Below are positions 2,010 to 27,435 of a stretch of DNA of 64,000 bases, piece after piece. The stretch is from Pseudarthrobacter sp. C4D7. GTDB taxonomy: Bacteria > Actinomycetota > Actinomycetes > Actinomycetales > Micrococcaceae. Within the stretch, counting starts at the first letter, position 1; every line of letters starts with the position of its first letter. The position numbers and the translations under genes are program-made. The notes beneath the pieces are model-generated. The model was not told where the DNA came from. It saw only the letters and a list, made by a program, of their open reading frames with translations, and ran no database searches. The stretch is taken from the NCBI RefSeq assembly GCF_013359725.1, contig NZ_JABFMW010000003.1, forward strand, positions 124,001-188,000, in the 5' to 3' direction.

Positions 2010-3613
2010 CGCGTACCTCCCCCGCTGGTGTTGCCCGGAACGGCCGTGCCGTCGCCCAGCACCGCCTCGATGTACGGCGTGCGGTCCAGCATGTCCCGGG
2101 CAGCCCGGTCCGACAGGCCAAACAGCGGCCCGGCAAAAACGGTCAGCGCGACGCCGAGCACCACCAGTCCCGCGGTGGAACCCACCATGGTGCGTGGCAG
2201 GAGCGTGACCCTGTCATTGACCTTCGCCCCCGGACCGGAAACCCGCGCCGACGGAGTGGAAAGGAGCACAGGGTCCGGGTGCTCGGCGTCCGTGGGGCGC
2301 CGCCAGAAGGCACGGTTCCAGACCCTGGCGATGGCCAGCAGCGTCAGGAGGCTGGTCACCACCCCGCCGATCACCAGGGCGTAGGCCAGAGGCGTGCCCA
2401 GTTGGATGCCGGCCTGCAGGAGGCCCACCTTGCCGAGGAACCCGGAAAACGGCGGGATGCCGGCCAGGTTCATCCCGGGGATAAAGAACAGCAGGGCCAG
2501 CATGGGCGAGAGCTTTGCCAGGCCGCCCAGCCGGTCCACGGAGGAGCTGCCGCCGCGGCGCTCAATGAGGCCGGTGACCAGGAAGAGGCTGGTCTGGATG
2601 GTGATGTGGTGCGCCACGTAGAAGACCGCCGCGGCAAGGCCCACCACTGAGGACATGGCCAAGCCGAACACCATGTAGCCGATGTGGCTGACCAGGGTGA
2701 ACGACAGGAGACGCTTGATGTCGCTTTGGGCCAGGGCGCCCAGGATGCCCACCAGCATGGTCAGCAGCGCCACCACCATCAGGGGCGTGTTGAGGGTGTC
2801 GCCGGGAAACAGCAGCGTCTCGGTCCGGACCATCGCATAGACGCCCACCTTCGTCAGCAGGCCGGCGAACACTGCGGTGACCGGGGCGGGGGCCGTGGGG
2901 TAGGAGTCGGGAAGCCAGAAGGAGAGGGGGAAGACGGCGGCCTTGATGCCGAACGCCACCAGGAGCATCACATGCAGCAGGGTTTTGGTGCCCTGGTCCA
3001 GTTCGCCCAGCTTGATGGCCAGGTCCGCCATGTTCACGGTACCGGTGGCCCCGTAGACCATGGCAATGGCGATCAGGAACAGCACCGAGGACACCACGGA
3101 CACCACTACGTAGGTGACGCCGGCGCGGATGCGCGGTCCGGTACCGCCCAGGGTCATCAGCACGTAGCTTGCCGTCAGCAGGATCTCGAAGCCGACGTAG
3201 AGGTTGAACAGGTCGCCGGACAGGAACGCGTTGGACACCCCTGCCACCAGGATCAGGTAGGTGGGGTGGAAGATCGAGACCGGTGCGTCGTGGTCGCCGT
3301 CGGCCATGCCCTGGCCCGTGGCGTACACCAGCACGGCCAGGCTCACGGCGGAGGACACCACCAGCATAAGGGAGGAGAACTGGTCCACCACCATGACGAT
3401 GCCGAACGGAGGGATCCAGCCGCCGAGGGTCACCGCCGCGGTGCCGCTGTTCCAGGCGGAGGCCAGCAGGAGGCATTCGAGGGCCAGGGTCAGGGACAGG
3501 AGCGCGATGCTTACCGCGCGCTGGGCCCGGGAGTGCCGGATCAGCAGGAAGGTCAGGGCGGCGCCCAGGATGGGAAGTACGACGGCGAGCGGGGCAAAGC
3601 TTGCGATGTTCAC
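2006..3613 (-). CDS. mnhD: Mnh/Mrp Na+/H+ antiporter subunit D (proton-pumping NuoN/L-like)
   Basis: A 535-residue polytopic protein with about 14 membrane helices, homologous to the antiporter-like subunits of respiratory complex I. Key stretches are visible: NLYVGFEILLTASYVL with the conserved Glu in helix 5, and GIKAAVFPLSFWLPDSYPTA, which carries the conserved Lys and the LPDSYPTAP motif. It overlaps mnhC and mnhE by 4 bp each. MnhD and MnhA form the ion-translocating core. An extra polar stretch near residues 445-475 links the last helices. Confidence 0.95.
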   Translation of the reverse strand: MNIASFAPLAVVLPILGAALTFLLIRHSRAQRAVSIALLSLTLALECLLLASAWNSGTAAVTLGGWIPPFGIVMVVDQFSSLMLVVSSAVSLAVLVYATGQGMADGDHDAPVSIFHPTYLILVAGVSNAFLSGDLFNLYVGFEILLTASYVLMTLGGTGPRIRAGVTYVVVSVVSSVLFLIAIAMVYGATGTVNMADLAIKLGELDQGTKTLLHVMLLVAFGIKAAVFPLSFWLPDSYPTAPAPVTAVFAGLLTKVGVYAMVRTETLLFPGDTLNTPLMVVALLTMLVGILGALAQSDIKRLLSFTLVSHIGYMVFGLAMSSVVGLAAAVFYVAHHITIQTSLFLVTGLIERRGGSSSVDRLGGLAKLSPMLALLFFIPGMNLAGIPPFSGFLGKVGLLQAGIQLGTPLAYALVIGGVVTSLLTLLAIARVWNRAFWRRPTDAEHPDPVLLSTPSARVSGPGAKVNDRVTLLPRTMVGSTAGLVVLGVALTVFAGPLFGLSDRAARDMLDRTPYIEAVLGDGTAVPGNTSGGGTR

Positions 3614-13569: not shown

Positions 13570-13805
13570 GAAAAAATTCCTGTGGTTGACGTCGGCTGCC
13601 GCAATAGCTGCCTCCCCCAAAGCGGCCGCTACCCGGATCAGGTTAGCCACCGCCCAGCACCCAGGCCTAGCCGGCACCGCCGACGTTATTGAAGAGTTAC
13701 TGGATGACGTTCGGGCCGGCAAGACACGGAGGGGCCGCCGGCCCGTGTTGGCGGGGAGCCTGCAGATCTGCGCTAAGCTAAGTTCTGCCCCGCGCGAGCG
13801 GCGGC
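13570..13805. other. Left flank of the insertion: probable displaced upstream region of tRNA-Gly
   Basis: This stretch between the SRPBCC start and the left target repeat has no convincing gene. It contains GCTAAGCTAAGTT at 13773-13784, with two overlapping -10-like boxes (TAAGCT and TAAGTT), about 22-27 nt before the target repeat. If the element is removed, this sequence sits directly upstream of tRNA-Gly, so it is the likely native promoter region. The -35 is not clear (TTGGCG at 13748-13753 is too far for a perfect fit). Confidence 0.5.
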
Positions 13806-13814
13806 ACTGCGGCT
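13806..13814 (+). repeat. Left copy of 9-bp target-site duplication ACTGCGGCT
   Basis: ACTGCGGCT directly precedes the left tip GGGACTG of the element and is identical to the 9 bases that directly follow the right tip CAGTCCC. A perfect 9-bp direct repeat outside inverted tips is the footprint of DDE transposition. The bases correspond to positions -3 to +6 of tRNA-Gly. Counting one or two bases differently could give 10-11 bp. Confidence 0.85.
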
Positions 13815-13835
13815 GGGACTGGTCAATAATCCCTG
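13815..13835 (+). repeat. Left terminal inverted repeat of the transposon
   Basis: The left end reads GGGACTG, then GTCAATAATCCCTG. The right end, read inward, has the same GGGACTG tip and later TCCAATAATCCCTG (12 of 14 bases alike), but with 12 extra bases between the two parts. The left end therefore carries one internal box and the right end two. Confidence 0.8.
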
Positions 13836-13951
13836 TAGCCCCTAGAACATGCGTAGGCAAAATTCCCTCGAAACGCGCTAAAGCGATTCTGGGAACGCGC
13901 TGCCAAAGACACACAGAAAATCCTGTCGGGATTAGGCGCTATCTTTGAAGC

Positions 13952-14332
13952 ATGGCTAAGAAACCGAACCCCGAGGTATGCGATGTATACGTCGCTGACC
14001 CCACGGAGATCAACGTTCGGGACGACCACAAAGAGAAGATCACCCGTCGATACGGAATTGCGGAAGCTTCAAAGAAATCGTTTACGGTGCAAGCTATTGG
14101 TCGTACCACGGATAAACCACGTGATGACGAGAAGATCACACCCGTCCACTCCCCCAGAAATGATGACATTGGGTTGACTAAGGAGGGATGGTGGATCGTA
14201 CGTTACCGCTGCACGATCCAGAAGGCGCTCTTCAAGGAGGACGTTCTGGATCACAGAGGTGAGCTTGTTAACCCAGAGGCGGATGCATTCACTGATCTTT
14301 GGAACAAGAACTCTGTTCTCGGCTACTACTGA
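13952..14332 (+). CDS. Hypothetical protein (first cargo gene)
   Basis: A 126-residue, charged, soluble protein that I do not recognise. It has no membrane segment or signal peptide. A basic N-terminal half is followed by KEGWWIVRYRCTIQKALFKED and an acidic C-terminus. ATG 13952 has TATCTT at 13940-13945, exactly 6 nt upstream, the leaderless pattern seen in this genome. It begins 137 bp inside the left end of the element and precedes the two-gene peptidase unit on the same strand by about 40 bp, so it may be the first gene of that operon. Confidence 0.6.
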   Translation: MAKKPNPEVCDVYVADPTEINVRDDHKEKITRRYGIAEASKKSFTVQAIGRTTDKPRDDEKITPVHSPRNDDIGLTKEGWWIVRYRCTIQKALFKEDVLDHRGELVNPEADAFTDLWNKNSVLGYY

Positions 14333-14374
14333 TACACTGATTTACTGCCCACTTCACAGATCGGCACGCCTGCA

Positions 14375-15265
14375 TTGAAACTCCTTGATCGCAGCCAGCT
14401 TCCCAGCGAGGCTGTACGAATTATCGACGGCGGCACCCCCGCCGCACCAAAAGCTGGTGACGTGTGGGTGCTGGCAGATGAGATTCAAGACCTTGCTCTA
14501 GGTCTAATTACGCGTGTCCATGACTCCTTCGTGTCTATCCTTCCGATCACCTGCGATGCCGCCGAAGCCAGAGAGCCTGCTTCCATCGTTCGCGCCGCAG
14601 AGTCGCCCATAAATGCAGACATTGCAGTCTGGTCGCCTGCACCAACAGGGATCGGCATGCACCTTCTGGACCGTCGTATCGGGAACCTCTGCTCTGAAAG
14701 CGCAGCACTGAGACTGGAACGATCAGCCTTCGACGACGACGTGGACAGCCCTTTTGAAATGGGCGCTGAGATGGAATCCGATGACACGACCCCATTCATC
14801 GACTTTTTGTTGAGCAGCTTTCGCAAGTTTTGCTTTGATTCGTGGCCGTCTGTCACGGCTGGAGAGGCGGTATTCAAGACAGAAGCTCTCATGGAAGCTG
14901 AAATGACCGCCAAGAAGATTCGTGAAAATTTGAACATTCCTGAACGCGGGGACGCTGCCGACCTCTATCGCGGCGATGCGTTGCCGACTTCTGCACAGAT
15001 ATCCGTAATGCGCGAGATCACGGGTCTCACTGATTCCCAACTCCTTCGTCCGGTCAGTTCTGAAGTAGTAACCGAACTGATGCAACCAACCCACCGGGAC
15101 AAAATCGTAAGCTTGGCAGAGCGCAGGGCGTTGAAGCAGCGTGATGCAAGAAACTTACTCATGCAGAATGCATTGATTGCAGCTCGCAGTTCCAAAGCTG
15201 GCGATGAACGACAAGCGGCGCAAAACCGCATCAACGAAGCGTTTTCGCGTCTGATGCAGGAGTAG
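14375..15265 (+). CDS. Hypothetical protein, partner of the ImmA/IrrE-like peptidase
   Basis: A 296-residue protein that I cannot assign. The frame is closed upstream (stop at 14330) and the only early start is TTG 14375, without a clear ribosome-binding site; a later start is possible. Residues ~25-75 form a small beta-rich segment (PKAGDVWVLADEIQDLALG). Residues ~180-290 are strongly helical and charged, with SLAERRALKQRDARNLLMQ suggesting a coiled or DNA/protein-binding helix bundle. It ends 6 nt before the peptidase gene, whose AGGAG lies in its last codons, so the two are coupled and probably act together, perhaps as substrate or sensor and protease. Confidence 0.6.
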   Translation: MKLLDRSQLPSEAVRIIDGGTPAAPKAGDVWVLADEIQDLALGLITRVHDSFVSILPITCDAAEAREPASIVRAAESPINADIAVWSPAPTGIGMHLLDRRIGNLCSESAALRLERSAFDDDVDSPFEMGAEMESDDTTPFIDFLLSSFRKFCFDSWPSVTAGEAVFKTEALMEAEMTAKKIRENLNIPERGDAADLYRGDALPTSAQISVMREITGLTDSQLLRPVSSEVVTELMQPTHRDKIVSLAERRALKQRDARNLLMQNALIAARSSKAGDERQAAQNRINEAFSRLMQE

Positions 15266-15271
15266 CTGGCA

Positions 15272-16315
15272 ATGCTTACAACTCTTACTGATTACCGACT
15301 TTGGGCACTGCCCCGCAACTACGTTAAAATTGCCGACGCCATGATCCAAGAAATACTGGATTCCGGTGCCGTTTTTGAAGACATTGCGGACGCCCCTGTG
15401 GAGTATGTTGAATCGCGTGGCGACCTTGACGTTATCTTCCATGAGCTGCGGGGAACCAAGGGATGCAATGTTCAGGCGTGCTATGACCCCTACATCGATC
15501 CTCCGGCAATCTTCGTCCACCTAAGCGGAAACACCGGGCGCGACAACTTCAGCGTGTTGCATGAACTTGCCCACCATCAACAACGAGTTGGCGACGCTTG
15601 GGCCGATGTCACTGAAGACATCACTGATCGAGCCTTCATAAAGGAACTTCGCGAGAAGGTCGCCAACAGTTTCGCGTCCAGACTTTTACTTCATGAGGAT
15701 TTGATCGATTCCGCGTTCGGTTCAGGACCTGTAACCGCCGCTGGGGTGAGATGGTTGTTCGATAACTCGGCAGCATCCATGCAGGCATGTCTCTATCGAT
15801 CCCTTGAACTTGAAGGAAATAGAGTTGTCATGCAGGCAGACTCTGACGGCAGGCTGTTCTTCAGCGCGGCAAATAGCGATGAGCTATTCCCACCCCACAA
15901 GGATAAAACTCAGGAAGAGATCGCTCGCTCCTTCGACCGTCTACAGGCTAGCGCGGACGGAAGCTTAGTTGTCCGTGGCGGGTACGGTATCCAGCATCTC
16001 AGCGGAAAGAGCTACACCAACGTTGTACTCGACATGGTTCTGTGCGACGGGTGCGTTCTCGTGATTGCCACCAAGGGACGCAGCGAGCAATTCGCCTTCA
16101 GTGACGACGGCGAGTACTACCAAGGCTCCGTCTGCCATGACAGCTTCCTGATCAAGGACTCTCCCGGTAGGTGTTCTACCTGTAACGAGCCGAAATGCTC
16201 GAAGTGTAAATCCTGTGGATGCCCTGACAAGCAGCCTCCGCCATGCACCCGATGCTTTATGCTTTTGTCCGTTAATGACGTGCGTGCAGGGCTGACCGCA
16301 CACGAGTATTGCTAA
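15272..16315 (+). CDS. ImmA/IrrE (M78)-type metallopeptidase with cysteine-rich C-terminal tail
   Basis: A 347-residue protein. The zinc site is seen as HELAHH (His97, Glu98, His101), with the third ligand in LREKVANSFASRLLL (Glu128), exactly the ImmA/IrrE arrangement. Residues ~215-290 form an additional beta-rich domain. The last 47 residues hold nine cysteines (301, 304, 309, 312, 315, 317, 325, 328, 347) in CxxC-like pairs, suggesting a zinc-ribbon tail not found in plain ImmA. Family members cleave repressors (ImmA, IrrE) after a stress signal. RBS AGGAG is 9 nt upstream of ATG 15272. A role as a damage- or phage-triggered protease in this element is inference. Confidence 0.82.
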   Translation: MLTTLTDYRLWALPRNYVKIADAMIQEILDSGAVFEDIADAPVEYVESRGDLDVIFHELRGTKGCNVQACYDPYIDPPAIFVHLSGNTGRDNFSVLHELAHHQQRVGDAWADVTEDITDRAFIKELREKVANSFASRLLLHEDLIDSAFGSGPVTAAGVRWLFDNSAASMQACLYRSLELEGNRVVMQADSDGRLFFSAANSDELFPPHKDKTQEEIARSFDRLQASADGSLVVRGGYGIQHLSGKSYTNVVLDMVLCDGCVLVIATKGRSEQFAFSDDGEYYQGSVCHDSFLIKDSPGRCSTCNEPKCSKCKSCGCPDKQPPPCTRCFMLLSVNDVRAGLTAHEYC

Positions 16316-16461
16316 CCGGACCCGAATCGATTGCTGCGGCGCTTGGCGCGCTCCTGACATCTCATGCGGACTGCTTGAATGGCGGGATTAGCCCCTAGGG
16401 CGTTCACAAGCGCGAACGGCTAAACAGGAAAACAGATGCTTGGCATTCCCTACGCCACTTC

Positions 16462-17400
16462 TCAACACTGCCCCAGATTCAAATGCTCAAGGTTTGCCGT
16501 TTGGGGGAGATCGGTAAGCTGACGAGCCATCAACACCTCAGGACACTTGCGTATCCGGTCGGCAACTTCGTCTCCAAAAGCGATGGCTCGTTGTTCAAGG
16601 AAGTCACCCAAGTACTTCGACTGGACTACCTCGATTTTAATGTTTGCCCGCATATTCTTGGAGTGCACCTGACGCATCACATTTGTCCATGGCACCTCTG
16701 CGGCAGCAACGTCGTTTGCATCAGTGTTGACTTCGAATATCTTGTTCGAAGTTACGAGGATTGGCAGGGTTACTGAGTTGTGGGACTGCTCATGATCCTG
16801 AAACGCTTCTCGCGCACGGTTTGAGTTTATGCGCTTAAAGGTGTTCACTGCCTTTGTTAGCGGCATCACAATGCCGTCGAAGATATGTGAATTACCAGCG
16901 AACCATTCGGAGCCTTTGCGCTCAAGAGAGATGAGTTGATTACCAACGAAGGAATCGCTCGTAGGACTGCCCGGAGCATCGGATAATCCGAGTAAGTCCC
17001 AGATCGGTCTATGTTCCTCTACTTCCAATCCCGAAATTTGCGGGTGTGGCATCTTACCCACGTTGAATCCAGAAGTCCAAAAGGATGCACCGCTCCGCAT
17101 CTGTCGTTTCTCGTACTCAGTTGCAGCATGCCCTACGACTACATATGGAGACTTCGGATTCTTGCATTCGATAATTAGCCGCATGCCAAAAACGCAGTCG
17201 AATCTATCGTGGATGAAGAAAGGCTTCCAGCCTAAGACATCGATCTCCCGCGATTTACCCTCGTCGGGGTCTTGGTATGCCCGAGAGATGGCAGCATCGA
17301 ATCCAGCGGACTCAACTATCCTTCGAACTTCCTGCTCAAGCAGGAAGCCCGTCACTTGTAGTGCGCTCAGGACCTCATCAGGAGAAGGATCAGCCGCCAA
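16462..17400 (-). CDS. PD-(D/E)XK-fold nuclease-like protein at the end of the hsd operon
   Basis: A 312-residue soluble protein. Residues 14-35 form a helix (TGFLLEQEVRRIVESAGF) followed by REIDVLGWK with Asp54, then MRLIIECKNPK with Glu78 and Lys80. Helix-D-(beta)-ExK is the restriction-endonuclease core. The C-terminal ~200 residues are unassigned. It starts 36 bp after the hsdR stop on the same strand and so is read with the type I operon. It is not a usual hsd component and could be an extra nuclease, a helper or an antitoxin-like partner. It converges on the peptidase gene. Confidence 0.7.
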   Translation of the reverse strand: MAADPSPDEVLSALQVTGFLLEQEVRRIVESAGFDAAISRAYQDPDEGKSREIDVLGWKPFFIHDRFDCVFGMRLIIECKNPKSPYVVVGHAATEYEKRQMRSGASFWTSGFNVGKMPHPQISGLEVEEHRPIWDLLGLSDAPGSPTSDSFVGNQLISLERKGSEWFAGNSHIFDGIVMPLTKAVNTFKRINSNRAREAFQDHEQSHNSVTLPILVTSNKIFEVNTDANDVAAAEVPWTNVMRQVHSKNMRANIKIEVVQSKYLGDFLEQRAIAFGDEVADRIRKCPEVLMARQLTDLPQTANLEHLNLGQC

Positions 17401-17436
17401 TGCTCAACCCTTCTGCGGAGTTTTCACTAAATGGCA

Positions 17437-20400
17437 TCATGCCGCTTCCTCATCCCGAAGCTTCTCGAAAAGCCCCATCTTCTTGAGCAACTCCACCATC
17501 TCGCCCACCTTGTCTGAGGACAAAACCCAACCAATGCCCTTGGCATGCTGCTCCCCGGCCTCGATAACAGAGTCCTCAACCGTCGTCAGAATCTTTGGCG
17601 AAGAGTAGAAATCAACCTTGCCGTTCGCTTGTGCCTGACCACGCAGAGTCTGGTTCTCCAGAGCCTTGTTCAGCACACTCTCTGCCACAGAGAGTTGATC
17701 AGCGTCAGACAGCCCGGACCCCTCAAAGAAGGTGTTCATTTGTTCGATGATTTCGGCCCAACGTGCCTTCTTCACCTCATGGGCAGCACCACTACCGGCA
17801 GCCGTCATTGGGTCCAACGCCACGGAGTCTTCAGCAGACAATTTCAAGTCTGCCTGCTCCTGCTTCTTGAGCTTGTAATGAGTCATCACGACCTCGGACA
17901 GGTCCACTGTCGTTCGGTCCTGATTTTCAGAGCTGATGACGCGTGCCAGCAGCTTGTAGAAGATCGATCGCTTCTCCAAATCCGTGTCTTGGTAGTCAAT
18001 GATCTGCGATAGGAAGTCGTAGGCGCGAATGAAGCTACCAAGGTCCTTACGGAACAGGTCCAAGGCGTCCTGAGCCGTCTTATCGCCCTCTTCACGAGCC
18101 TTCTGGTATCGGGCCTTAAAACGAGATTTTGCGGGCGCTACAAAGCTCTTCAGCTCCTCATGGCTAGTCTTGCCAACCCAAGCAGCAGCCGTAGCTTCGA
18201 CTTCGCTCGTCTCATAGATGCCTGTGTTATCCAGCTTCGTCTGGAGATCATGAACTATGTCCGGGTCAGTGACTCCGGACAGCTCCGCCTCCTTGTGGTA
18301 CTGCTGGAACGCCGCAAGAATCTCGGCAGGATCATTCACGAAGTCAATAATGAAAGTCTGGTCTTTGCCCGGCGTGACCCGATTCAGGCGCGAAAGCGTC
18401 TGCACAGCGGTGATGCCAGAAAGCTTCTTGTCCACATACATCGCAACCAGCAATGGCTGATCAAAGCCGGTTTGGAACTTATTAGCAACCAGCATGATTT
18501 GGTACTCGTCGTCCTCGGACCCAAACGCCACTGGAATCTCACGGCCCTTGAGTCCGGGGTTCATATTCTTCTCGTTGAGCTTGTCGGCGGAAACCTCCTT
18601 ATCCACAACGTCACCGGAGAAGGCAACCAGCGTTGCAAGGTCCGTGTAACCCTTGTCGGCAATGTACTTGTCGATGGCTACCTTGTAGCGAACTGCTTCC
18701 TTGCGGGAACCCGTCACAACCATTGCCTTCGCACGACCGGCGAGATGGTGCCGGACATTGCTACGGAAGTGCTCAACGATGACGGCGACCTTCTGGCTGA
18801 TATTGTGCGGGTGCAGCTTGACCCAGCGCATCAGTTCCTTCACCGCTTCAGACTTCTCAATGGTCACCTGATCGGCGTCGTAATCAACGCCGTTGTGAGC
18901 AAGCTTGAAAGCGGTCTTGTATGGCGTGTAGTTCTTCAGCACATCGAGGATGAAGCCCTCTTCAATCGCCTGCTGCATGGAGTAGACGTGGAAGGGTGCT
19001 GGCACGTCAGCAGCATTGTTCCTACCAAACAGCTCCAACGTCTTGGCCTTCGGCGTTGCGGTGAAGGCGAAGAAACTCAGGTTCTTGCTCTCCGCACGCT
19101 TGTTCATCTCATCTGCGAGCACGTCTTCTGTGGAAAGCTCGGTCTCCGACAGATCGTCCTCGTCCTCAGCAGGAGCATCATTCCCTGAAGTAAGTACCTT
19201 CTTAAGGGTTTTCGCCGCGTCGCCGGACTGGGAGCTGTGTGCCTCGTCCGCGATGATGGCGTAGGACTTACCCTTGAGTCCTTTCTCCTTTTCGATGGCG
19301 TCTAAAGCGAAGGGGAACGTTTGTAGCGTTACGCCGATGATCTGCTTGCCGCCAAGGAGTGCCTTGGACAGCGACTTGGACTTGGAGCCGCCCTTCGAAG
19401 TGATGGCTTCGAACACGCCCTCGGTCTTGTTGAGTTGCTTGACGGCATCCTGCAACTGACCATCGAGTACCTTGCGGTCACTGATGACGATGATGGCATC
19501 GAACATCTTCTTGCCACTCGGATCATGCAGGCTGTTCAGTCGATGTGCAGTCCAAGCGATGCTGTTGGTCTTGCCCGAACCAGCGGAGTGCTGGATAAGG
19601 TAACGGTGGCCCGGTCCTTCAGCGGCAGCGGTCGCGGCAAGCATGTTCACGGCTTCCCACTGATGGAAACGCGGGAACAGGAGAGACTTCTCAACGCTTT
19701 TCTCGCCCGTAATTGGGTCAGTCTTCTTCTCCACGTGAAGGTGCATGAAGTGACTAAGGATGGTCAGCCACGAGTCGCGCTGAAGTACACGTTCCCACAT
19801 GTACGATGTCTCGCTGCCGTTCGGGTTCACAGGGTTGCCCTTGTGCCCGTCATTTCCCATGTTGAATGGGAGAAACCGAGTCTTGGCACCCTGCAAGTTG
19901 GTTGTCATCCAGCACTCTTCACTGGACATAGCGAAGTGAACGAGTGCCCGGTGTCCAAACGAAAACAAGGGTTCCCGCTTCCGTGTCACCGCATCTACGG
20001 GCAGCCGATTCGTTTTGTACTGAGCGATTGCGTCCTGCACCGTCTGGGTGAAGTCGGTTTTCAACTCCATCGTGGCTACGGGAAGGCCATTCACGAAGAA
20101 AACGAGATCGACGCTGTTCTGGTTGCTGGTCGAGTAGTACACCTGACGCATCACACGAAGTCGTGTCTTCGCGTAGTCAGCAGTCGTCTTCGGGTTCTTG
20201 TCATCGTTCGGCTTTGGCTGGAACATGCGGAACGAGGCGGGAGTGACTTTGAATCCCTTACGCAGGACTGCCAAAGCCCCTCCACCATTTTCCAGCGGAG
20301 TATCCATGACTTTGACCATGCGAGTCAGGAGCCGGTTGAATGACTTCTTCTGCACGTCGGGCGAGTCGGTCGCTTTGACGATTTTCTGAAGTTCTTCTGG

Positions 20401-20550
20401 CTGAGTTTCCTCCAGCCACCCGCGAACATCCTCGGGGAACAGTGCAAGTTCCTTGTCGTACCCAGTACTGTTCGCGGAGTACAGCCAACCGTGGGCATGC
20501 AGGTACTCCGCGATGCCCTTCTCAAACTCAACCTCGTTGTACAACGCCAT
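17437..20550 (-). CDS. hsdR: Type I restriction enzyme, R (nuclease/translocase) subunit
   Basis: A 1,037-residue protein. The N-terminal nuclease domain shows the PD-(D/E)XK core: Asp148 (NSVDLVFFVNG) and Glu162-x-Lys164 (MELKTDF). The motor has Walker A AGSGKT (323-328) and the DEAH box (435-438), then the second RecA fold with MLVANKFQTGFDQPLL and QTLSRLNR. The C-terminal ~200 residues fit the HsdM-binding helical region. The enzyme cuts unmodified DNA after translocation. ATG 20550 lies 2 bp after the hsdS stop. Confidence 0.95.
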   Translation of the reverse strand: MALYNEVEFEKGIAEYLHAHGWLYSANSTGYDKELALFPEDVRGWLEETQPEELQKIVKATDSPDVQKKSFNRLLTRMVKVMDTPLENGGGALAVLRKGFKVTPASFRMFQPKPNDDKNPKTTADYAKTRLRVMRQVYYSTSNQNSVDLVFFVNGLPVATMELKTDFTQTVQDAIAQYKTNRLPVDAVTRKREPLFSFGHRALVHFAMSSEECWMTTNLQGAKTRFLPFNMGNDGHKGNPVNPNGSETSYMWERVLQRDSWLTILSHFMHLHVEKKTDPITGEKSVEKSLLFPRFHQWEAVNMLAATAAAEGPGHRYLIQHSAGSGKTNSIAWTAHRLNSLHDPSGKKMFDAIIVISDRKVLDGQLQDAVKQLNKTEGVFEAITSKGGSKSKSLSKALLGGKQIIGVTLQTFPFALDAIEKEKGLKGKSYAIIADEAHSSQSGDAAKTLKKVLTSGNDAPAEDEDDLSETELSTEDVLADEMNKRAESKNLSFFAFTATPKAKTLELFGRNNAADVPAPFHVYSMQQAIEEGFILDVLKNYTPYKTAFKLAHNGVDYDADQVTIEKSEAVKELMRWVKLHPHNISQKVAVIVEHFRSNVRHHLAGRAKAMVVTGSRKEAVRYKVAIDKYIADKGYTDLATLVAFSGDVVDKEVSADKLNEKNMNPGLKGREIPVAFGSEDDEYQIMLVANKFQTGFDQPLLVAMYVDKKLSGITAVQTLSRLNRVTPGKDQTFIIDFVNDPAEILAAFQQYHKEAELSGVTDPDIVHDLQTKLDNTGIYETSEVEATAAAWVGKTSHEELKSFVAPAKSRFKARYQKAREEGDKTAQDALDLFRKDLGSFIRAYDFLSQIIDYQDTDLEKRSIFYKLLARVISSENQDRTTVDLSEVVMTHYKLKKQEQADLKLSAEDSVALDPMTAAGSGAAHEVKKARWAEIIEQMNTFFEGSGLSDADQLSVAESVLNKALENQTLRGQAQANGKVDFYSSPKILTTVEDSVIEAGEQHAKGIGWVLSSDKVGEMVELLKKMGLFEKLRDEEAA

Positions 20551-20552
20551 AA

Positions 20553-21854
20553 CTATGCAGCCCCCAGCTCAGCAGTAATACGGTTTCGAACGTCAATTTT
20601 GCCGGTAACGGCAGCAGAAATTAGAGCAGCACGGCGCTCCTTGGACAGCTCGATGGCTTCCTCGGCATCAGCGATGGCAGCATCAATCTCTGCGGTCTCG
20701 AAGTCGAGGTAGTCAACGATCTCCTCCTGCTCATCGACCGGAGGTACAGGCATAGGTAAAGTGGCGTACTTATCAGCACCAATGTTCTGAATCGTGGCAA
20801 CCGTTTGTGACGCATTTTTCCAGTCGAGGAATGGTGTTGATTGGAAAAACCTGTAAGCGAAGCGCGGCAATAGTAACTTTGAATCACACTCCACCCTGAT
20901 GAGATAACCCGCGAAGCAGCTCGGTGGACTGTCTTCCGGCACGATGAACGCTTTCCCTACGGTGGCCCCGCTTCGTGCCAACAAGATGTCGTTCGGCTTC
21001 ACCATATAATCCGCTGCTACTTCAGGGGGCAAGGATTTAAAAGTCTCGTCCTTGAGTTTTCCGTTGTATCCAAAGTCAGTGATTCTCAAATAACGCACCC
21101 AGTCAGGGTCGTCAAATTCCGCCGCCTCATTGGCCCCGTACTTTAGCTTCGATGCCAGCAGATGCCGCAGGGAGGCTATGCTCCAGCCTTCCGGCACTTC
21201 TCCCAGCCACTCGACACCGCTGCTCTTCATCTGGACAGTGCGATCGAGTCCTTTGGTGACCGCACGAGTGATTGTTGCAGCCCGCCGCTCGTTCAGTAGC
21301 GCGATGAGTTCTTCCTGATCCGCGATGAAGTCATCGATCTCAGCAGTTTCGTGGTCAAGGTAGGAAGCAATAGCACGTTGTTCATCCAGAAGGGGAAGTC
21401 TCACCTTGAAGTTCCTTGTGAACGACTCCGGAACTCGTTTTAGCCCTCCAGCTCCGGTCATTTCTGCTTTCCCAAGCTGCTTGAAGCGGTCTTCAACCAG
21501 GACATAGAAGAGGAACTTGGTGTCTACGGCATCCCGTGCCCTTACGACAGTTACCTCAGTGGTCCCGAATCCAACTCCTCCGATCAGACCGCCCAGAACC
21601 GCTGCTTTCCCGTTCTCAAAGCAGGGCGTTACCTTCGCATAGGCAATGTCACCATTCTCGAAGAACGAGTATCCGGTCAGCACGTCTTCTACACGGCGCG
21701 TCTTAGTCGCGTCGAATGACCCGTCTTCCCCAATTGCTTCCATCGGAAGAAACGAGACTTCTGCCTCCCGAGACTGCCGTATTTCCGGCGGGACGCTTGG
21801 ATTGATATCCACTACATAGCGGAGACGCACTTCCTCCCAGTCGTTGCTCCTCAT
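20553..21854 (-). CDS. hsdS: Type I restriction-modification specificity subunit
   Basis: A 433-residue protein with two target-recognition domains, each followed by a long conserved helix: LPLLDEQRAIASYLDHETAEIDD at ~residues 155-175 and PPVDEQEEIVDYLDFETAEI at ~385-405. This duplicated half-site organisation gives a bipartite DNA recognition sequence. It overlaps hsdM by 4 bp (ATGA). The two halves are complete, with no sign of phase variation repeats or truncation. Confidence 0.95.
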   Translation of the reverse strand: MRSNDWEEVRLRYVVDINPSVPPEIRQSREAEVSFLPMEAIGEDGSFDATKTRRVEDVLTGYSFFENGDIAYAKVTPCFENGKAAVLGGLIGGVGFGTTEVTVVRARDAVDTKFLFYVLVEDRFKQLGKAEMTGAGGLKRVPESFTRNFKVRLPLLDEQRAIASYLDHETAEIDDFIADQEELIALLNERRAATITRAVTKGLDRTVQMKSSGVEWLGEVPEGWSIASLRHLLASKLKYGANEAAEFDDPDWVRYLRITDFGYNGKLKDETFKSLPPEVAADYMVKPNDILLARSGATVGKAFIVPEDSPPSCFAGYLIRVECDSKLLLPRFAYRFFQSTPFLDWKNASQTVATIQNIGADKYATLPMPVPPVDEQEEIVDYLDFETAEIDAAIADAEEAIELSKERRAALISAAVTGKIDVRNRITAELGAA

Positions 21855-23815
21855 GCCTTCACCGCTTCCAGACGCGCACGGATACGGCCCAACACGGCGT
21901 CAAGATCATCATCGATAACTTCCAACGAGCGCGGCTCCTGATACTTGTAAAAGTGACGCGTGAACGGGATGTCATAGCCGATCTTGGTCTTAGACTCATC
22001 GATCCAAGCATCTGAGGCGAACGGGAGCACCTCCCGCTTGAAGTACTCATCAACATCTTCAGTCAGTGGCACGTTTTCAGTATCGCGAAGGTCCGGATCG
22101 GATTCTGGGGAGCCCTTTGCATTGGTGCTGATTTCACCTTCTTCATCGCGTGCCGACAGTCCGGCCACCAGCGTCTTGAGCTGGGGACCGGTGAGAACTA
22201 CTCCACAGGCCTTGAGCGCTGCCCGCACGTCAGTCGTGAATCCGTCCCTGTTGGTCCAGACGTGCTCAACGTTGAGTTCTGATAGTGCATCGCGGACGGC
22301 GGCGACCTCAGTTTCGGTCAGCTTCGCAAGTCCTTTTGAGGTCAGAGCAGAAGCTACCCGCGCCTCGGTGACAGCAAAGTTGATTCGGAGGGGGCGCTCG
22401 ACGGTGATTGTCCGGTAACCAAAATCAACGTTCTTGAAAACCTTGCTGTACTCGGACCCGGCATCGTCATAAGCACCATAAAGCTTCACAATGCTCTCAA
22501 TGTGCTGTTCGCTCAGTTCCTTGCGCTTGGACCCGAGGCTCTTACGCATCTTCCTGTAGAACTGCTCGCTGGAAGCGTCAATGAGCTGGACCGTTCCCTT
22601 GCGTTCCTCAGACTTGCGGTTGGTCAAGACCCACACGTAAGTGGAGATGCCGGTGTTGTAGAACATGTCAGTAGGCAGCGCGATCAGCGCCTCCAGCAGA
22701 TCGTTCTCCAGAAGGTACCGGCGAATCTCTGACTCACCGGAGCCAGCACCCCCTGTGAACAGCGGCGACCCGTTCAGGACGATGGCAGCGCGCCCACCAC
22801 CGTCACGTACGGGACGCATCTTTTTTAGCAAGTGGAGCAGGAACAAGAGCGAGCCGTCAGAAACACGTGGAAGGCCGGGGCCAAAGCGCCCCTCGAATCC
22901 CAGTTCCTTATGTTCCTTTTCCACGACGGGAAGTGCTTTCTTCCAGTCCACACCGAATGGCGGATTGGACAAGCAGTAGTTGAAGGTCTTGCCACTGTGC
23001 CCGTCGTCCGTGAGCGTGTTCCCAAGAACGATAGAGCCAATGTCCTGACCCTTGATCACCATGTCAGCCTTGCAAATGGCGTAAGACTCAGGGTTCAGTT
23101 CCTGACCGGCAAGGGTCAGTGTGGCGTCCGGGTTCATCTTCCTGATGTGCTCATCCGCAACGGAGAGCATCCCGCCCGTACCAGCGGTGGGGTCGTAGAT
23201 GGACCGTACGATGTTGGCCTTGTCGAGATCGTTGTCGTCCGGAGCAAAGAGGATGTCCACCATCAAGTGAATGACCTCGCGCGGGGTGAAGTGTTCACCC
23301 GCTGTCTCATTAGAGGATTCCGCGAACTTGCGGATCAGTTCCTCAAAGATCAGTCCCATCTCGTTGTTTGAGACCTTGCTGGGATGCAGATCGATGGCAG
23401 CGAACTGCTGAGCGATCAGGAACAAGAGGTCGTGCTCGTGCAGCTCCTCGATGCGTTCTTCGAGCTTGTACTTCTCAAAGATGTCGCGCACGTTGTCAGA
23501 GAACCCGCGTACGTAGTCCAGCAGGTTGTCTCGGACGTTCTCTGCGTCGCCGGTCAGCTTCTGGAAGTCGTACTTGGACGTGTTGTAGAAAGCGTGCTTG
23601 GACTTCCGGGGTAGCAGCACCGTCAGTGGGATGCCACCGTCCTTGGACTTCTCGTACTCAGCCAGTACATCTTCTTTGGTCTCTGCCAGCACAGCATCGA
23701 GACGACGCAGGATGGTGAACGGCAGGACGATGGAGCCGTACTGATGGGGCCTGTAGCTGCCGCGCAGCAGGTCAGCAATGCTCCAGATGAAGTTGGCGTA
23801 GTTCTGATTGGACAA
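21851..23815 (-). CDS. hsdM: Type I restriction-modification DNA methyltransferase subunit
   Basis: A 654-residue N6-adenine methyltransferase. The HsdM N-terminal helical domain is followed by the SAM-binding motif DPTAGTGGM (208-216) and the catalytic NPPF (284-287). GEHFTPREVIHLMV is the typical HsdM entry to the methyltransferase domain. The C-terminal ~150 residues are longer than in EcoKI HsdM. The start is TTG 23815 with GGGGGA about 4 nt upstream; no ATG fits the conserved N-terminus. It is the first gene of the hsd operon and protects host DNA. Confidence 0.95.
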   Translation of the reverse strand: MSNQNYANFIWSIADLLRGSYRPHQYGSIVLPFTILRRLDAVLAETKEDVLAEYEKSKDGGIPLTVLLPRKSKHAFYNTSKYDFQKLTGDAENVRDNLLDYVRGFSDNVRDIFEKYKLEERIEELHEHDLLFLIAQQFAAIDLHPSKVSNNEMGLIFEELIRKFAESSNETAGEHFTPREVIHLMVDILFAPDDNDLDKANIVRSIYDPTAGTGGMLSVADEHIRKMNPDATLTLAGQELNPESYAICKADMVIKGQDIGSIVLGNTLTDDGHSGKTFNYCLSNPPFGVDWKKALPVVEKEHKELGFEGRFGPGLPRVSDGSLLFLLHLLKKMRPVRDGGGRAAIVLNGSPLFTGGAGSGESEIRRYLLENDLLEALIALPTDMFYNTGISTYVWVLTNRKSEERKGTVQLIDASSEQFYRKMRKSLGSKRKELSEQHIESIVKLYGAYDDAGSEYSKVFKNVDFGYRTITVERPLRINFAVTEARVASALTSKGLAKLTETEVAAVRDALSELNVEHVWTNRDGFTTDVRAALKACGVVLTGPQLKTLVAGLSARDEEGEISTNAKGSPESDPDLRDTENVPLTEDVDEYFKREVLPFASDAWIDESKTKIGYDIPFTRHFYKYQEPRSLEVIDDDLDAVLGRIRARLEAVKA

Positions 23816-24361
23816 GGGTTCCCCCGGTGAGTCTCGGTTGAGCAGGTATTGGACCCATGTTATCCCGGCAAATCACGATGGTTTTTTGAGGTGCATTATT
23901 TTCGCTTGAGGCGTCAAAGTAACTAGCTTTCCTTTGAGTCATCACTAATCGCTCTCCAAGAACCACCCCTAGTTAGCCCGTCAATCAAAGTAGCCACGCC
24001 CCTATTTCAATATTGTTGACGTTCCTACCGCACTCACAAATTCAACAATGTTGTCGCTTAACTGCCATGTCGAAATTGTTGCATTTATTCCAACTGTGGT
24101 TTATCTTGAATTTCAAAGGCTCCCTCGTGGGGCCTTTTAGTGTTTCTGCGTACTGGACGTTAATTAAACCAGTGCGATTCAATAAAAAAGATGGCCCCAG
24201 CGGACAACTAGGGCCATCTTCACACAACTACCGCAAGTGACAGCCTGCGGATCGAAACTACTCATACGTGAAAGGTGAGTGGCTCCATGCTATCTGCCTC
24301 CAGATCGGAATTGCAAGATTATTCTGGGAATAATTCTAAAACTGAACATGACGGCTACTAC
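23816..24361. promoter_or_regulatory. Intergenic control region upstream of hsdM with three ATTGTTG boxes
   Basis: This 546-bp AT-rich stretch has no convincing gene. ATTGTTG occurs at 24012-24018 and 24075-24081, and inverted (CAACAAT) at 24043-24049, so the three boxes are spaced 31 and 32 bp, about three helical turns. The first lies in the palindrome CAATATTG and the middle one in CAACAATGTTG. They are good candidates for operators of the nearby XRE protein. AAAGGC/GCCTTT at 24115-24137 followed by T residues looks like a second terminator hairpin. Confidence 0.5.
24180..24220 (-). terminator. Rho-independent terminator of the XRE gene
   Basis: A 10-bp perfect stem (AAGATGGCCC at 24188-24197, GGGCCATCTT at 24211-24220) with a 13-nt loop. 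Read on the minus strand, the stem is followed by TTTTTTATT. It lies 140 bp past the stop of the minus-strand XRE gene and would insulate hsdM from it. Confidence 0.8.
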
Positions 24362-24670
24362 CTATCGCTTCTTGCGGAGTCGTTGCGACGGGAGCAGTTC
24401 CTTGTTCAACGCCTTCTCCAACAATGCAATAGTGGCGAGGTCGGGGATGGTACGTCCCTTAATAATTCCATTGATGGTGCTATGGGAGATACCACCAGCC
24501 ATTTTTCCAAGCTCGCGATACCCGATATCCAGCCTGTGCATCTCATCAACGAGGGCCTTCGCGAACAATCGTGCGTACTCAGCGGGGACATTGCCAGTGA
24601 AATCAGCGGCGAGCCAATCAGCTCCCTCGCCAGCGACTTCAGCGGGCTTGACAGCTTCTCTCCGGGACAT
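24362..24670 (-). CDS. XRE/Cro-C1-type HTH regulator
   Basis: A 102-residue protein whose residues ~48-95 form a Cro/C1 helix-turn-helix: YRELGKMAGGISHSTINGII then KGRTIPDLATIALLEKALN. Short length fits a restriction controller or transposon repressor. Its ATG 24670 has TACAGT exactly 6 nt upstream, the leaderless pattern. It is transcribed away from the recombinase-like gene, so it may repress transposition, the hsd operon, or both. A longer plus-strand frame through the same bases (24275-24832) is a shadow, because this minus-strand frame has the clear domain. Confidence 0.82.
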   Translation of the reverse strand: MSRREAVKPAEVAGEGADWLAADFTGNVPAEYARLFAKALVDEMHRLDIGYRELGKMAGGISHSTINGIIKGRTIPDLATIALLEKALNKELLPSQRLRKKR

Positions 24671-24793
24671 GGTTCAACTGTAAACCACATTGCCGATAGA
24701 CCGTTCGTCCCCTTCGAACTAGTGGGCGCTCCCGCTGACCTCAGAAAACTTTTCGGCAAACATGCTTGTCAAACCCCGCCTGCTCGACATTAC

Positions 24794-24815
24794 ACTGGTC
24801 TATATATCGACCAGT
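24794..24815. promoter_or_regulatory. Operator-like dyad upstream of the transposition module
   Basis: ACTGGTC (24794-24800) and its exact complement GACCAGT (24809-24815) flank TATATATC. The dyad sits 17 nt upstream of the start of the recombinase-like gene and its spacer resembles a -10 element. A repressor bound here would block that promoter; the divergent XRE protein is the natural candidate. Confidence 0.5.
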
Positions 24816-24832
24816 CAAGCGAGTCGGTGGGA

Positions 24833-25774
24833 ATGGAAACAATGGCGACAACCAAGCCTGAGCAGGGAATTCTGATCACTGATGCAGTTCAAGTTGTGCT
24901 CAAACACTGGGCGGAAACCAACGCGCTCCAAGACGAATCACTTCTTACCTTCGAGAAGCTGCTGACTCGCTACGCAACCTTTGTCACCAAACTGGGAGTA
25001 CCTGCGCTTGCTGACCAGTCTGAGGATTTGGCAGCGCAATGGATTCAAGCAAAAGGACGCGACCGGAGCGGCAACGTAAAACTCCCTGCACTGTCAACGA
25101 TGAATACTCGTCGTGCAGCATTGCGGAAGTTCTTTCGGGACGCGGACGCACTCAACCTTAGTGACACAGGACTGTTTGTAAGAGTTTATGTAGCTCCCCG
25201 TCCCACCGGACTCGCACGTCCCCTCACCAAAGATGAAGCGGAACGAGTCTGGCTTTATGCCAAGGACTCTGGCAGTAATACCCGCCGCCCCGTCATGTTT
25301 GCGCTACTACTTTCCGGTGTTCATTCATCCGAAGTGGGACTCATCACCACCAGTGATGTTGATATAGCTAACCAGCGTGTATGGGCGCATGGAAGCACCG
25401 ATCGAATTGAACCTCGCTGGGTCCACTTGCCAGACCCGTATTTCGCCGCAGTGGTTGATCGCCTCAATTACCTCCGGGGTTGGGTTCCTCCTTTCCGCAC
25501 CTTCGAAACATTCCAGCTCACGCAAGGGACAACGCACCGTCCCGCAGGTAAGTCGCAAAATCGCGCTGCGTCAGCCTGCAAAGAAGTATTCAAGATGGCG
25601 GGGCTGCACAACGATCCACGAATTACGCCTTCCTCCGTCTCTCTCTATGCGGGGTCTCGCATGCTCATCGAAGGCGAGCGGCTCGAAGTAATCACTCAGA
25701 CGCTGGGTTACTCATCCCTTGATGCTTGCGCCAAGGCCCTTGGTTATGACTGGAAGACGGGCGAAATCGGCTAA
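24833..25774 (+). CDS. Tyrosine-recombinase-like protein lacking the usual catalytic residues
   Basis: A 313-residue protein (start ATG 24833; ATG 24842 is equally possible). Residues ~15-110 resemble the SAM-like core-binding domain and ~128-305 the integrase catalytic domain: ARPLTKDEAERVWLYA, then FALLLSGVHSSEVGLITTSDVD. In true integrases the last phrase is TG-L/x-R-xSE; here Arg I is His164. The HxLR region reads ITPSSVSLYAG, without His or Arg, and the final LGH becomes LGYSS with no Tyr at the normal +9 position (Tyr305 is at +12). The fold seems kept and the chemistry lost. It overlaps no gene and ends 2 bp before the transposase. A DNA-binding accessory role, perhaps target choice, is my inference. 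Confidence 0.7.
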   Translation: METMATTKPEQGILITDAVQVVLKHWAETNALQDESLLTFEKLLTRYATFVTKLGVPALADQSEDLAAQWIQAKGRDRSGNVKLPALSTMNTRRAALRKFFRDADALNLSDTGLFVRVYVAPRPTGLARPLTKDEAERVWLYAKDSGSNTRRPVMFALLLSGVHSSEVGLITTSDVDIANQRVWAHGSTDRIEPRWVHLPDPYFAAVVDRLNYLRGWVPPFRTFETFQLTQGTTHRPAGKSQNRAASACKEVFKMAGLHNDPRITPSSVSLYAGSRMLIEGERLEVITQTLGYSSLDACAKALGYDWKTGEIG

Positions 25775-25776
25775 TT

Positions 25777-27156
25777 ATGAGGAGGAGCCACGCTAGCCCA
25801 GCGGATCGCGAGTACGGTTGGACATCCGACCGTACTGCTCTTGCTGTGCTGCGCGCTTCCTACATCGTGGACATCTCCAAGGAGATTCCGAAACGCGACC
25901 GGTCCAAAGCTGGACGCCCAAATCAGCATCCGGATCATATCTATATCTTTGCAATGGCACTGATAGGAGTCTTCGGCGCTGAACGTCCTGCCGCCGCGTG
26001 GATTCGCGAGCGAACGAATTGGTTCAAAGTACGCTCCCACTCCCGCCGATACTGGGGCATCGAACTCGCAGAACACCCGCCTGCCCGAAGCACTATCCAC
26101 TACAACTTGGATCGGTTGTCCGCCTTCAGCACACTGATTCGAGAAAGGTTTGCAACCCTAGCCATTGAGCAGGCGCAGCAACAAGGGTGCCTAACGGAAA
26201 ACGTCAGCACCATGAACAAACCGCCGCGATCGAACGTAGTCGCGGCTGACGGCACCGTACCGAAGTCTCGTCTGCGCTCGAAGACTGCCGACCGACTAGA
26301 AGCGGAGGGCAAACTCCGTCGCCCAATACCCAAGTACAAGGAGGGTGGGGAAGACGGTCACTGGGTCTCGGGGTTCAAGGAGCTGGTCCTAGTAGTCCGC
26401 CCAGACGACCATCCCAATTCCCGAGTAATTCTTGGCGCGTTCCCGGTGCCCAAGGAGGGGTATGGTGGCGAGGCAGGCATCGCTGTTGCTGAGCTTCAAA
26501 AGTTGCGCCAGCGCACCAAAGGTTTTCTTGGCTTGCGTTACGACGGTGCCTTCACTGGCGTGCACATCGACGCCATGCAAAAGTCAGGCGTCAGCGTTAT
26601 TAGTCCCGTACCCAAGAGTGACAAGCGACGCTTGTTCAGTACTGTCACGTGCTCTGGAAAGCACGTCCACACGCTGTATACGGAGGCGGGGGACTTCGTA
26701 GAGCTTGAGCTTCTCGATACAGGAGAGCATCACGCGGTGCCCTGCAAGCGTGTAGGGCAGTACTCCCGGAAGAATGCTGACGGAACCTACCGGTGGTACA
26801 CAAAGATTGAACTCGCGTGCGGGAACCATCACACGGAGCGGTTGGACATTACCGAAGAAGACAAGGAACGTGATTTCAACCGTACTCAGGTTCTACGCAT
26901 GCACCCGCCAGCCACTGACGAGTACAAGAACACTTATGGGTGGCGTCAGGATGTTGAGAGCGTCAACAACAACTTGGATACGACGCTCTACCGTCACCGA
27001 ATGGTGGCTGACACCGTAGAGAAGCAAGCGCTGGTCATGATTGGGTTCGCTATCGCCCGGAATGCCGTGAGCGCCAAGGTATTCGCGGAGAGGGTGCGAA
27101 CTGGGGCGCTTACAGCTCCACCCACTCCTGCGCTTCAAACCCTGTCCGCAGCGTAG
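25777..27156 (+). CDS. IS4-superfamily-like DDE transposase
   Basis: A 459-residue protein. The RNase H-type acidic triad can be placed: Asp158 (VVAADGT), Asp256 (GLRYDGAFTG) and Glu394. Around the Glu the sequence YGWRQDVE gives Y-x2-R-x3-E, the signature of IS4-type enzymes, though the following Lys is Asp401. About 138 residues between Asp256 and Glu394 form a beta-rich insertion, as in IS4/Tn5 enzymes. The N-terminal 110 residues are basic and should bind the ends. The gene begins 2 bp after the recombinase-like gene and ends 202 bp from the right tip, so it is the presumed mobilising enzyme. The 9-bp duplication supports activity. Confidence 0.78.
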   Translation: MRRSHASPADREYGWTSDRTALAVLRASYIVDISKEIPKRDRSKAGRPNQHPDHIYIFAMALIGVFGAERPAAAWIRERTNWFKVRSHSRRYWGIELAEHPPARSTIHYNLDRLSAFSTLIRERFATLAIEQAQQQGCLTENVSTMNKPPRSNVVAADGTVPKSRLRSKTADRLEAEGKLRRPIPKYKEGGEDGHWVSGFKELVLVVRPDDHPNSRVILGAFPVPKEGYGGEAGIAVAELQKLRQRTKGFLGLRYDGAFTGVHIDAMQKSGVSVISPVPKSDKRRLFSTVTCSGKHVHTLYTEAGDFVELELLDTGEHHAVPCKRVGQYSRKNADGTYRWYTKIELACGNHHTERLDITEEDKERDFNRTQVLRMHPPATDEYKNTYGWRQDVESVNNNLDTTLYRHRMVADTVEKQALVMIGFAIARNAVSAKVFAERVRTGALTAPPTPALQTLSAA

Positions 27157-27278
27157 GAAGACAAGAAATGTCCAAGTAGCCTCGATCAAGCCTGTCTTCG
27201 GACAGGCTTTTCATCGTTCAAAGACCAATTCACTATGCGCTCGTGCCCAGAAACAGCCGTGTCGCGGTGACAACGAGG

Positions 27279-27308
27279 TTCAAAGTTTGCCAAAGTCTGG
27301 GGTAGTCT
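27279..27308 (+). promoter_or_regulatory. Candidate outward promoter near the right end, reading into tRNA-Gly
   Basis: TTCAAA (27279-27284) and TAGTCT (27303-27308) are separated by 18 bp. TAGTCT is also the -10 used by the TetR gene in this window. Transcription would start near 27315 and run through the right end into tRNA-Gly, replacing the promoter lost to the left flank. The -35 is weak. Confidence 0.4.
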
Positions 27309-27325
27309 GAATCTCGTTGTTTTCG

Positions 27326-27358
27326 CAGGGATTATTGGACAAGATATTGGACAGTCCC
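27326..27358 (-). repeat. Right terminal inverted repeat of the transposon
   Basis: Read inward (minus strand), the end is GGGACTG, then TCCAATATCTTG, then TCCAATAATCCCTG. GTCCAATA occurs twice, 12 bp apart, whereas the left end has a single GTCAATA. These are probable transposase-binding boxes, and the asymmetry may set the roles of the two ends. Confidence 0.8.
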
Positions 27359-27367
27359 ACTGCGGCT
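27359..27367 (+). repeat. Right copy of 9-bp target-site duplication ACTGCGGCT
   Basis: ACTGCGGCT directly follows the tip CAGTCCC and matches 13806-13814. Its last six bases are the first six of tRNA-Gly, so the duplication restores the tRNA acceptor stem. Confidence 0.85.
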
Positions 27368-27435
27368 GTAGCTCAATGGTAGAGCGCTAGCTTCCCAAGC
27401 TTGATACGCGGGTTCGATTCCCGTCAGCCGCTCCA
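27362..27435 (+). tRNA. tRNA-Gly (anticodon CCC)
   Basis: A full cloverleaf is present. The acceptor GCGGCTG pairs with CAGCCGC; the D arm is GCTCAATGGTAGAGC; the anticodon loop TTCCCAA gives CCC for codon GGG; the T arm is GCGGG-TTCGATT-CCCGT; discriminator T and an encoded CCA end at 27435. One T-T mismatch sits in the anticodon stem. The gene lies directly against the right end of the 13.5 kb element. Confidence 0.93.

Follow-up and report, generated by a model that had tools for sequence, protein, structure and literature searches.

A transposon with a predicted Tn5-fold transposase and a catalytically depleted recombinase-like protein at the 5′ edge of a tRNA-Gly gene in Pseudarthrobacter

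The stretch of DNA analyzed here, referred to as the window, covers 64 kb of Pseudarthrobacter sp. C4D7 and contains a 13.5-kb transposon at positions 13815–27358 (Table 1). The element starts with the 7-bp tip GGGACTG from 13815 and ends with CAGTCCC up to 27358, and past these tips both ends have the inner motif CAATAATCCCTG in common, located 12 bp deeper at the right end. The 9-mer ACTGCGGCT borders the element on each side and has just two copies in the window, at 13806 and 27359. An earlier sequence-only reading of this DNA had proposed a DDE transposon bounded by terminal inverted repeats (TIRs) and a 9-bp target duplication; the tips and identical flanks that it gave (13806–13814 and 27359–27367) are exact to the base, as is its suggestion of an empty site in relatives. 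In L020 and L021, the window flanks joined with a single ACTGCGGCT align through, with 90.4% identity over 313 columns and 91.0% over 311 after removal of the element. Since both relatives lack the element and match straight through the join, the window feature is an insertion and no chance repeat. The GC content of 1-kb intervals, likewise noted before to differ from that of the flanks, is 0.50–0.58 within the element versus 0.63–0.70 outside. The tRNA target, the lost recombinase residues, the tRNA link of relatives, the promoter-like right end and the plasmid copies described below go beyond that reading.

Directly to the right of the element, ARAGORN identifies a tRNA-Gly(CCC) gene at 27362–27435 on the plus strand. 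The right copy of ACTGCGGCT is composed of ACT and nucleotides 1–6 of this gene, an overlap of 6 nt, and because the duplication restores the first tRNA bases, the tRNA is whole after insertion. The sequence beginning with GCGCTAAGCTAAGTTCTGCCCC, which precedes tRNA-Gly(CCC) in the empty sites, is found at the left flank of the element, 13.5 kb away.

Two genes of the element, which are adjacent in all 13 loci compared, are central to its interpretation. The first encodes a XerD-like tyrosine-recombinase-like protein in which the first Arg, both His and the Tyr of the catalytic set are absent in the 12 distinct sequences compared; it is the only recombinase-like protein recognized in the window element, and no active integrase was recognized there. 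Some records annotate it as integrase, and its fold matches include MrpR (8a0a, E 9.9e-4), a phage regulator with a recombinase fold. A PDB sequence search with the protein labelled A2 returned nothing useful. The gene probably starts at 24833 instead of 24275, as the first 186 codons of the rejected 499-aa reading from 24275 overlap the antisense XRE gene and Pfam yields just a weak integrase N-domain match for it. The open frame 24275–24832 does extend the gene upstream, antisense to XRE, and database relatives are called with either length, many of them with the longer start. The second gene encodes a transposase whose predicted fold has the Tn5 transposase as its best match; no Pfam match and no PDB sequence match was found for it, and a Pfam search with four distant transposases gave no useful result. 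The IS4/Tn5-type signature is Y-(2)-R-(3)-E-(6)-K, of which Y387, R390 and E394 are kept, with D401 at the K position.

Related matches were found in 2 of 395 genomes of the family, 4 of 206 of the genus, 19 of 394 of the class and 3 of 396 of the order, with the window's own genome included in each count; the genus scan used the recombinase query, and the transposases were confirmed afterwards. A scan of genome contigs gave C. biazotea as its sole match, bringing the total to 25 genomes, fragments included. In 18 of these, the window and 17 further genomes, one of four kinds of tRNA gene is located downstream on the same strand, 200–265 bp from the match end (1.4 kb in G705): tRNA-Gly(CCC) in four (window, G330, G405 and G458), tRNA-Arg(CCT) in 11 (C. 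biazotea, G844, G728, G792, G767, G886, G672, G584, G1074, G1236 and G705), tRNA-Arg(TCT) in one (G566) and tRNA-Lys(TTT) in two (G583 and G670). With 47 tRNAs in 4.32 Mb, chance would put a tRNA start on the same strand and within 300 bp of 0.16% of places; the relatives are non-independent and no P value is attached to the association. At one IMG/VR locus (L187), neither a tRNA nor an element end was found.

Elements with identical ends and the same gene pair, but carrying other cargo, had been suggested as a check in the sequence-only reading, and these were found. Seven elements with both ends located, including that of the window, have exact 9-bp duplications, at −3/+6, −2/+7 or −1/+8 of the tRNA (Table 1). 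In C. biazotea, a second CTGGCGCCT occurs within the element with no tip beside it. Tandem stacks upstream of one tRNA gene, with a single target copy between the elements, are found at L181 (600–2100) and L229. Two tandem elements in G566 are separated by one GCCCCCGTA, the first nine tRNA bases, counted as 9 or 10 bp because one tip base is ambiguous; the elements of G1236 are stacked too, and G886 has a 3.4-kb remnant with a like repeat and no recombinase match found. Such stacks at one site indicate that newcomers enter at the same point, shifting older elements away from the tRNA. Left ends were sought and none found in G728, G767, G583, G670, G672, G584, G705 and G1074, several of these being limited by contig ends. 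Just outside the left tip in C. biazotea (L017, about 3200–3230) are several direct repeats of GCGCCTGG, which might fit repeated insertion or loss at one target.

The related transposase is also present in six plasmid records, five from Mycobacterium and one from Streptomyces. The G728 contig with tRNA-Arg(CCT), which is likely chromosomal, and M. kansasii pMK12478, typed as mobilizable, share 38,227 bp at 99.99% up to exactly GACGTCCCC, past which G728 continues with the tRNA and pMK12478 with plasmid sequence; an additional 3,299 bp of G728, to the contig end, are 100% identical to pMK12478. The copy in pMK12478 (L191/L232; NC_022654.1, 139483 round the origin to 38666) is about 44 kb in length with the 9-mer CGTCCCACC on both sides, and that in pMyong1 is about 26.7 kb with GTGATGTCC on both sides. 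At these two sites, a pattern search found no tRNA-like sequence; the gene tables have no entries for RNA genes and do not bear on this. Judging from the sequences, the family is mobile and the tRNA is not its sole target. Many metabolic genes and mce-family genes are carried by the pMK12478 element, and the pMyong1 annotation (L188, 5346–5893) has two short hypothetical proteins in place of the recombinase-like gene.

In five elements (window, G330, G405, G452 and G436), the A-type leader of the host tRNA is found on the left flank and other sequence precedes the tRNA at the right end. About 59 bp before the tRNA, the window, G330, G405 and G458 elements have TTC-N3-18-TARTST in their right ends, the spacing being set by eye, with the variant TTC-N3-18-TARTGT, also counted by eye, at the equivalent place in G330, G405 and G458. 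The stretch from −100 to −40 contains TANNNT in 14 of 19 right ends, compared with 5.6 ± 1.8 in shuffles, of which 0 of 1000 reach 14. A terminator scan of the right end gave nothing useful. In 93 genomes (from 100 loci, 7 of which were merged because their genome was already represented), the tRNA-Gly(CCC) leader is A-type (TAAGCT) in 49, B-type in 24 (L035 assigned by eye) and neither in 20. The B-type leader resembles the transposon right end and often carries CAGTCCC or a close variant of it at the tRNA. Three of the 24 B-type genomes have an element (window, G452 and G436), leaving 21 without a detected one (L032, L034, L035, L038–L040, L043–L046, L061, L062, L065, L072–L074, L096, L104, L106, L116 and L128).

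We lean weakly, on this sequence pattern, towards B-type leaders being transposon ends that were kept as promoters. In many of them the element tip (CAGTCCC or close) is exactly at the insertion point, and the sample has A-type leaders in four genera (g1, g7, g18 and g19) and B-type leaders in two (g1 and g28). It is quite possible, for the leader alone, that B-type is the host's own and that the transposon acquired its right end in a B-type host, given how common B-type is (24 of 93 genomes) with 21 lacking a detected element. The upstream sequence of about 19 kb read in 18 of these 21 hosts contains neither the A-type motif nor a convincing left end. In seven of the 18, the gene bordering the empty site is 12–17 kb away; an old element that has lost its ends may therefore remain there.

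In our view, the window element is probably a transposon that encodes a DDE transposase of predicted Tn5 fold and that entered the 5′ edge of tRNA-Gly(CCC), duplicating 9 bp and likely steered by the catalytically depleted recombinase-like protein. Like recombinases at their attachment sites within tRNA genes, this protein would bind the tRNA gene and recruit the transposase, which would cut in the interval from about −3 to +9 of that gene. The 9-bp duplication would restore the first bases and keep the tRNA whole, the old leader would be severed from it, and a promoter in the right end of the element would take over. The plasmid copies suggest that the same machinery could also insert away from tRNA genes, into a plasmid, and then travel. 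We infer the selector role by analogy with TnsF, the inactivated tyrosine recombinase required for insertion of Tn6022 into comM (Faure et al. 2023, PMC10293859), and from an identity comparison in which same-target pairs are at +6.4 points (n = 19) and different-target pairs at −0.45 (n = 36), the pairs being related and not independent and the means computed without the plasmid row and G760. A wider reading, possible rather than probable in our view, is that of an undescribed actinobacterial transposon superfamily with a Tn7 way of life without Tn7 genes, in which a recombinase devoid of chemistry would direct a Tn5-fold transposase to the opening bases of a single tRNA gene, the right end would become the new tRNA promoter and be kept by hosts after element loss, and transferable plasmids would be a second target for spread.

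Several observations weigh against this interpretation. Seven of the 25 genomes have no tRNA in sight: G547 and G901 are cut by contig ends and G650 is near one, G541, G903 and G599 are fragments, and the distant gene pair of G760 (L185, 8.1–10.4 kb) has no tRNA in 9.5 kb downstream. G886 is at tRNA-Arg(CCT) with no recombinase match, and its transposase frame contains a stop. pMK12478 and the tRNA-linked copy in G728 encode identical recombinase-like proteins and identical transposases, so either the machinery can at times do without a tRNA or there is a second route. The comparison of identities, drawn from related pairs, is no more than suggestive, and its pattern is broken by G767 (Arg) against other Arg elements and by the single Lys pair. 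The second Arg is retained in 3 of the 12 recombinase-like sequences (G767, G670 and G760), and Foldseek alone gave no significant match for the transposase. As for the promoter, the TANNNT pattern was chosen after looking at the right ends, C. biazotea, G728, G705, G1236 and G1074 lack it in that stretch, and a sigma-70 scan called no promoter in the right end.

Of the other explanations, the one that survives best, although we regard it as unlikely, is that the transposase itself recognizes the tRNA gene and the recombinase-like protein merely aids end binding, assembly or regulation. A precedent is given by the Dada DNA transposons, which have a DDE transposase and are reported to target tRNA and snRNA genes (PMC3706591). 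The constant pairing of the two genes (13 of 13 loci) and the conservation of the recombinase-like gene despite its lost chemistry count against this explanation. To our knowledge, no transposase of the Tn5 kind has a tRNA gene as target, which also counts against the transposase acting alone. Still less probable is that the recombinase-like protein acts as a regulator, such as an MrpR-like repressor, and that the tRNA position is where insertions are tolerated; the MrpR fold match, the tRNA left whole and the plasmid copies at other sites would all fit, but tolerance alone would hardly confine insertion to an equally narrow stretch of bases at 18 tRNA genes of four kinds only, or produce tandem stacking at one site. 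An ordinary tyrosine-integrase island with the transposase as passenger, suggested by the integrase annotations and by islands often being located at tRNA genes, is very improbable and was rejected, as the catalytic residues are absent, the ends are inverted tips with a 9-bp duplication, the transposase is kept as cargo varies, and insertion is at the 5′ end, in contrast to the 3′ part of the tRNA that such islands usually occupy.

Among known systems, TnsF of Tn6022 (Tn7-like) and Tsy (PMC10293859) are close in that the target selector of a DDE transposon (Tn6022) is a recombinase that has lost its active site, and in their site-specific insertion with target duplication. The window protein likewise has a recombinase domain with a lost active site, but it accompanies one predicted Tn5-fold transposase, and the target is a tRNA gene and not comM as in Tn6022 (PMC10293859). 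TnsF is also characterized by a TniQ partner, N-terminal zinc fingers and tandem CB domains; Pfam run on the 499-aa reading of the window protein gave just the weak integrase N-domain match. No Pfam or NCBIfam match to TnsA, TnsB, TnsC or TniQ was found among the 10 proteins of the window element, and therefore it is not classed as a Tn7-like element or a TnsF member. The Tn7-like CRISPR-associated transposons (CASTs) I-D and I-B2 resemble it as bacterial DDE transposons with a tRNA gene as home site and a second target route (PMC10293859). Unlike CyCAST, which homes via TnsD and inserts about 30–33 nt past the tRNA end (PMC10293859), the window family crosses the 5′ edge, separating the tRNA from its leader. 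Dada elements are DDE transposons that also find and insert at tRNA genes (PMC3706591; PMC8869645), but are described as eukaryotic with 6–7 bp duplications, in contrast to 9 bp here, and with multicopy targets; the abstract mentions no recombinase-like partner (PMC3706591). Among the literature matches listed (titles and abstract starts, with subscription papers mostly outside coverage), no bacterial DDE transposon at tRNA 5′ ends is described. Tn5/IS50 (IS4-type) is not known to have a dedicated selector, has low target specificity, and shares the fold with the window transposase by prediction, with no Pfam or PDB sequence match. Tyrosine-integrase islands have a tRNA gene as site and variable cargo including defense genes, in common with the window family, but operate by recombination chemistry with attachment-site repeats, and no active integrase was recognized here.

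The cargo of the window element (Table 1) is mostly as listed before: the type I restriction-modification (RM) system, the metallopeptidase and the XRE, recombinase-like and DDE transposase genes stand, but the extra nuclease lacks support, with no Pfam or NCBIfam match for the product of 16462–17400 and a single weak PADLOC match to DruE (E 0.006). HTH/XRE genes are found at the equivalent place in two mycobacterial plasmid copies. In the mycobacterial plasmid copies L190, L192, L193 and L194, three further genes (about 320, 175 and 210 aa) lie beside XRE and are perhaps an accessory module of that branch. The label 'defence transposon' fits the RM system of the window but is too narrow as a general name, since the 31.5-kb G844 element carries ars and P-type ATPase genes, assigned by reading the sequence without a profile search. 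From the first 70 residues read, G405 has the three left cargo genes of the window with a different hsdS, and G330 has a different type I system; the C. biazotea element carries the BREX genes brxC, pglX, pglZ and brxL. A 3.4-kb element with the same ends in G452 (L058, 15400–18765) contains a SocA/Panacea gene and genes without family, has no match to the transposase or recombinase, and is flanked by two 9-mers that differ at one base. A similar 2.75-kb cargo-only element with decayed tips and no transposase match is found in G436 (L131, about 16350–19088). Both were perhaps moved in trans.

Table 1. Features of the window and sizes of seven elements with exact 9-bp duplications
Feature	Position or size	Strand	Remarks
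GCGCTAAGCTA, part of host A-type tRNA leader	13770–13780	+	now 13.5 kb from tRNA; directly precedes tRNA-Gly(CCC) in empty sites
Left copy of 9-bp target duplication ACTGCGGCT	13806–13814	+	empty sites L020, L021
Left terminal repeat GGGACTGGTCAATAATCCCTG	13815–13835	+	identical tip GGGACTGGTCAATAAT in G330, G405, G452
Cargo ORF, no family	13952–14332	+	start equal in G405 element
Cargo ORF, no family	14375–15265	+	start equal in G405 element
M78 (ImmA/IrrE-like) metallopeptidase-like cargo	15272–16315	+	PF06114 2.5e-5; PADLOC capP 7e-14
Cargo ORF, 'nuclease' in sequence-only reading	16462–17400	-	no Pfam/NCBIfam match
hsdR, type I restriction subunit	17437–20550	-	family profile matches
hsdS, type I specificity subunit	20553–21854	-	family profile matches
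hsdM, type I methylase	21851–23815	-	family profile matches
XRE-type HTH protein	24362–24670	-	PF01381 2e-8
Tyrosine-recombinase-like protein without catalytic residues	24833–25774	+	putative target selector
DDE-type transposase, predicted Tn5-like fold	25777–27156	+	D158, D256, E394
Promoter-like TTCAAA-18-TAGTCT facing tRNA	27279–27308	+	spacing by eye
Right terminal repeat, GGGACTGTCCAATATCTTGTCCAATAATCCC on minus strand	27328–27358	-	
Right copy of ACTGCGGCT	27359–27367	+	final 6 bases are tRNA nt 1–6
tRNA-Gly(CCC), whole	27362–27435	+	ARAGORN
Window element	13.5 kb		9-bp duplication ACTGCGGCT
G330 element	12.3 kb		9-bp duplication ATTGCGGGC
G405 element	14.4 kb		9-bp duplication AACGCGGCT
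C. biazotea element	28.3 kb		9-bp duplication TGGCGCCTG
G844 element	31.5 kb		9-bp duplication CGGCCCCCG
G792 element	22.7 kb		9-bp duplication CGCCTCCGT
G1236 inner element	8.6 kb		transposase decayed; 9-bp duplication GCGCGCCTG

When a bacterial island lies at a tRNA gene, an integrase is usually taken to be responsible, and CASTs use the far side of tRNA genes. The DDE family described here, apparently unrelated, occupies the 5′ edge of the tRNA gene. The family carries cargo ranging from restriction and BREX to metal genes, in elements of up to about 44 kb. With two proteins, it would be a minimal system for studying the conversion of a DNA-binding recombinase into a target selector, and an example of an element that may supply a host tRNA gene with a replacement promoter.

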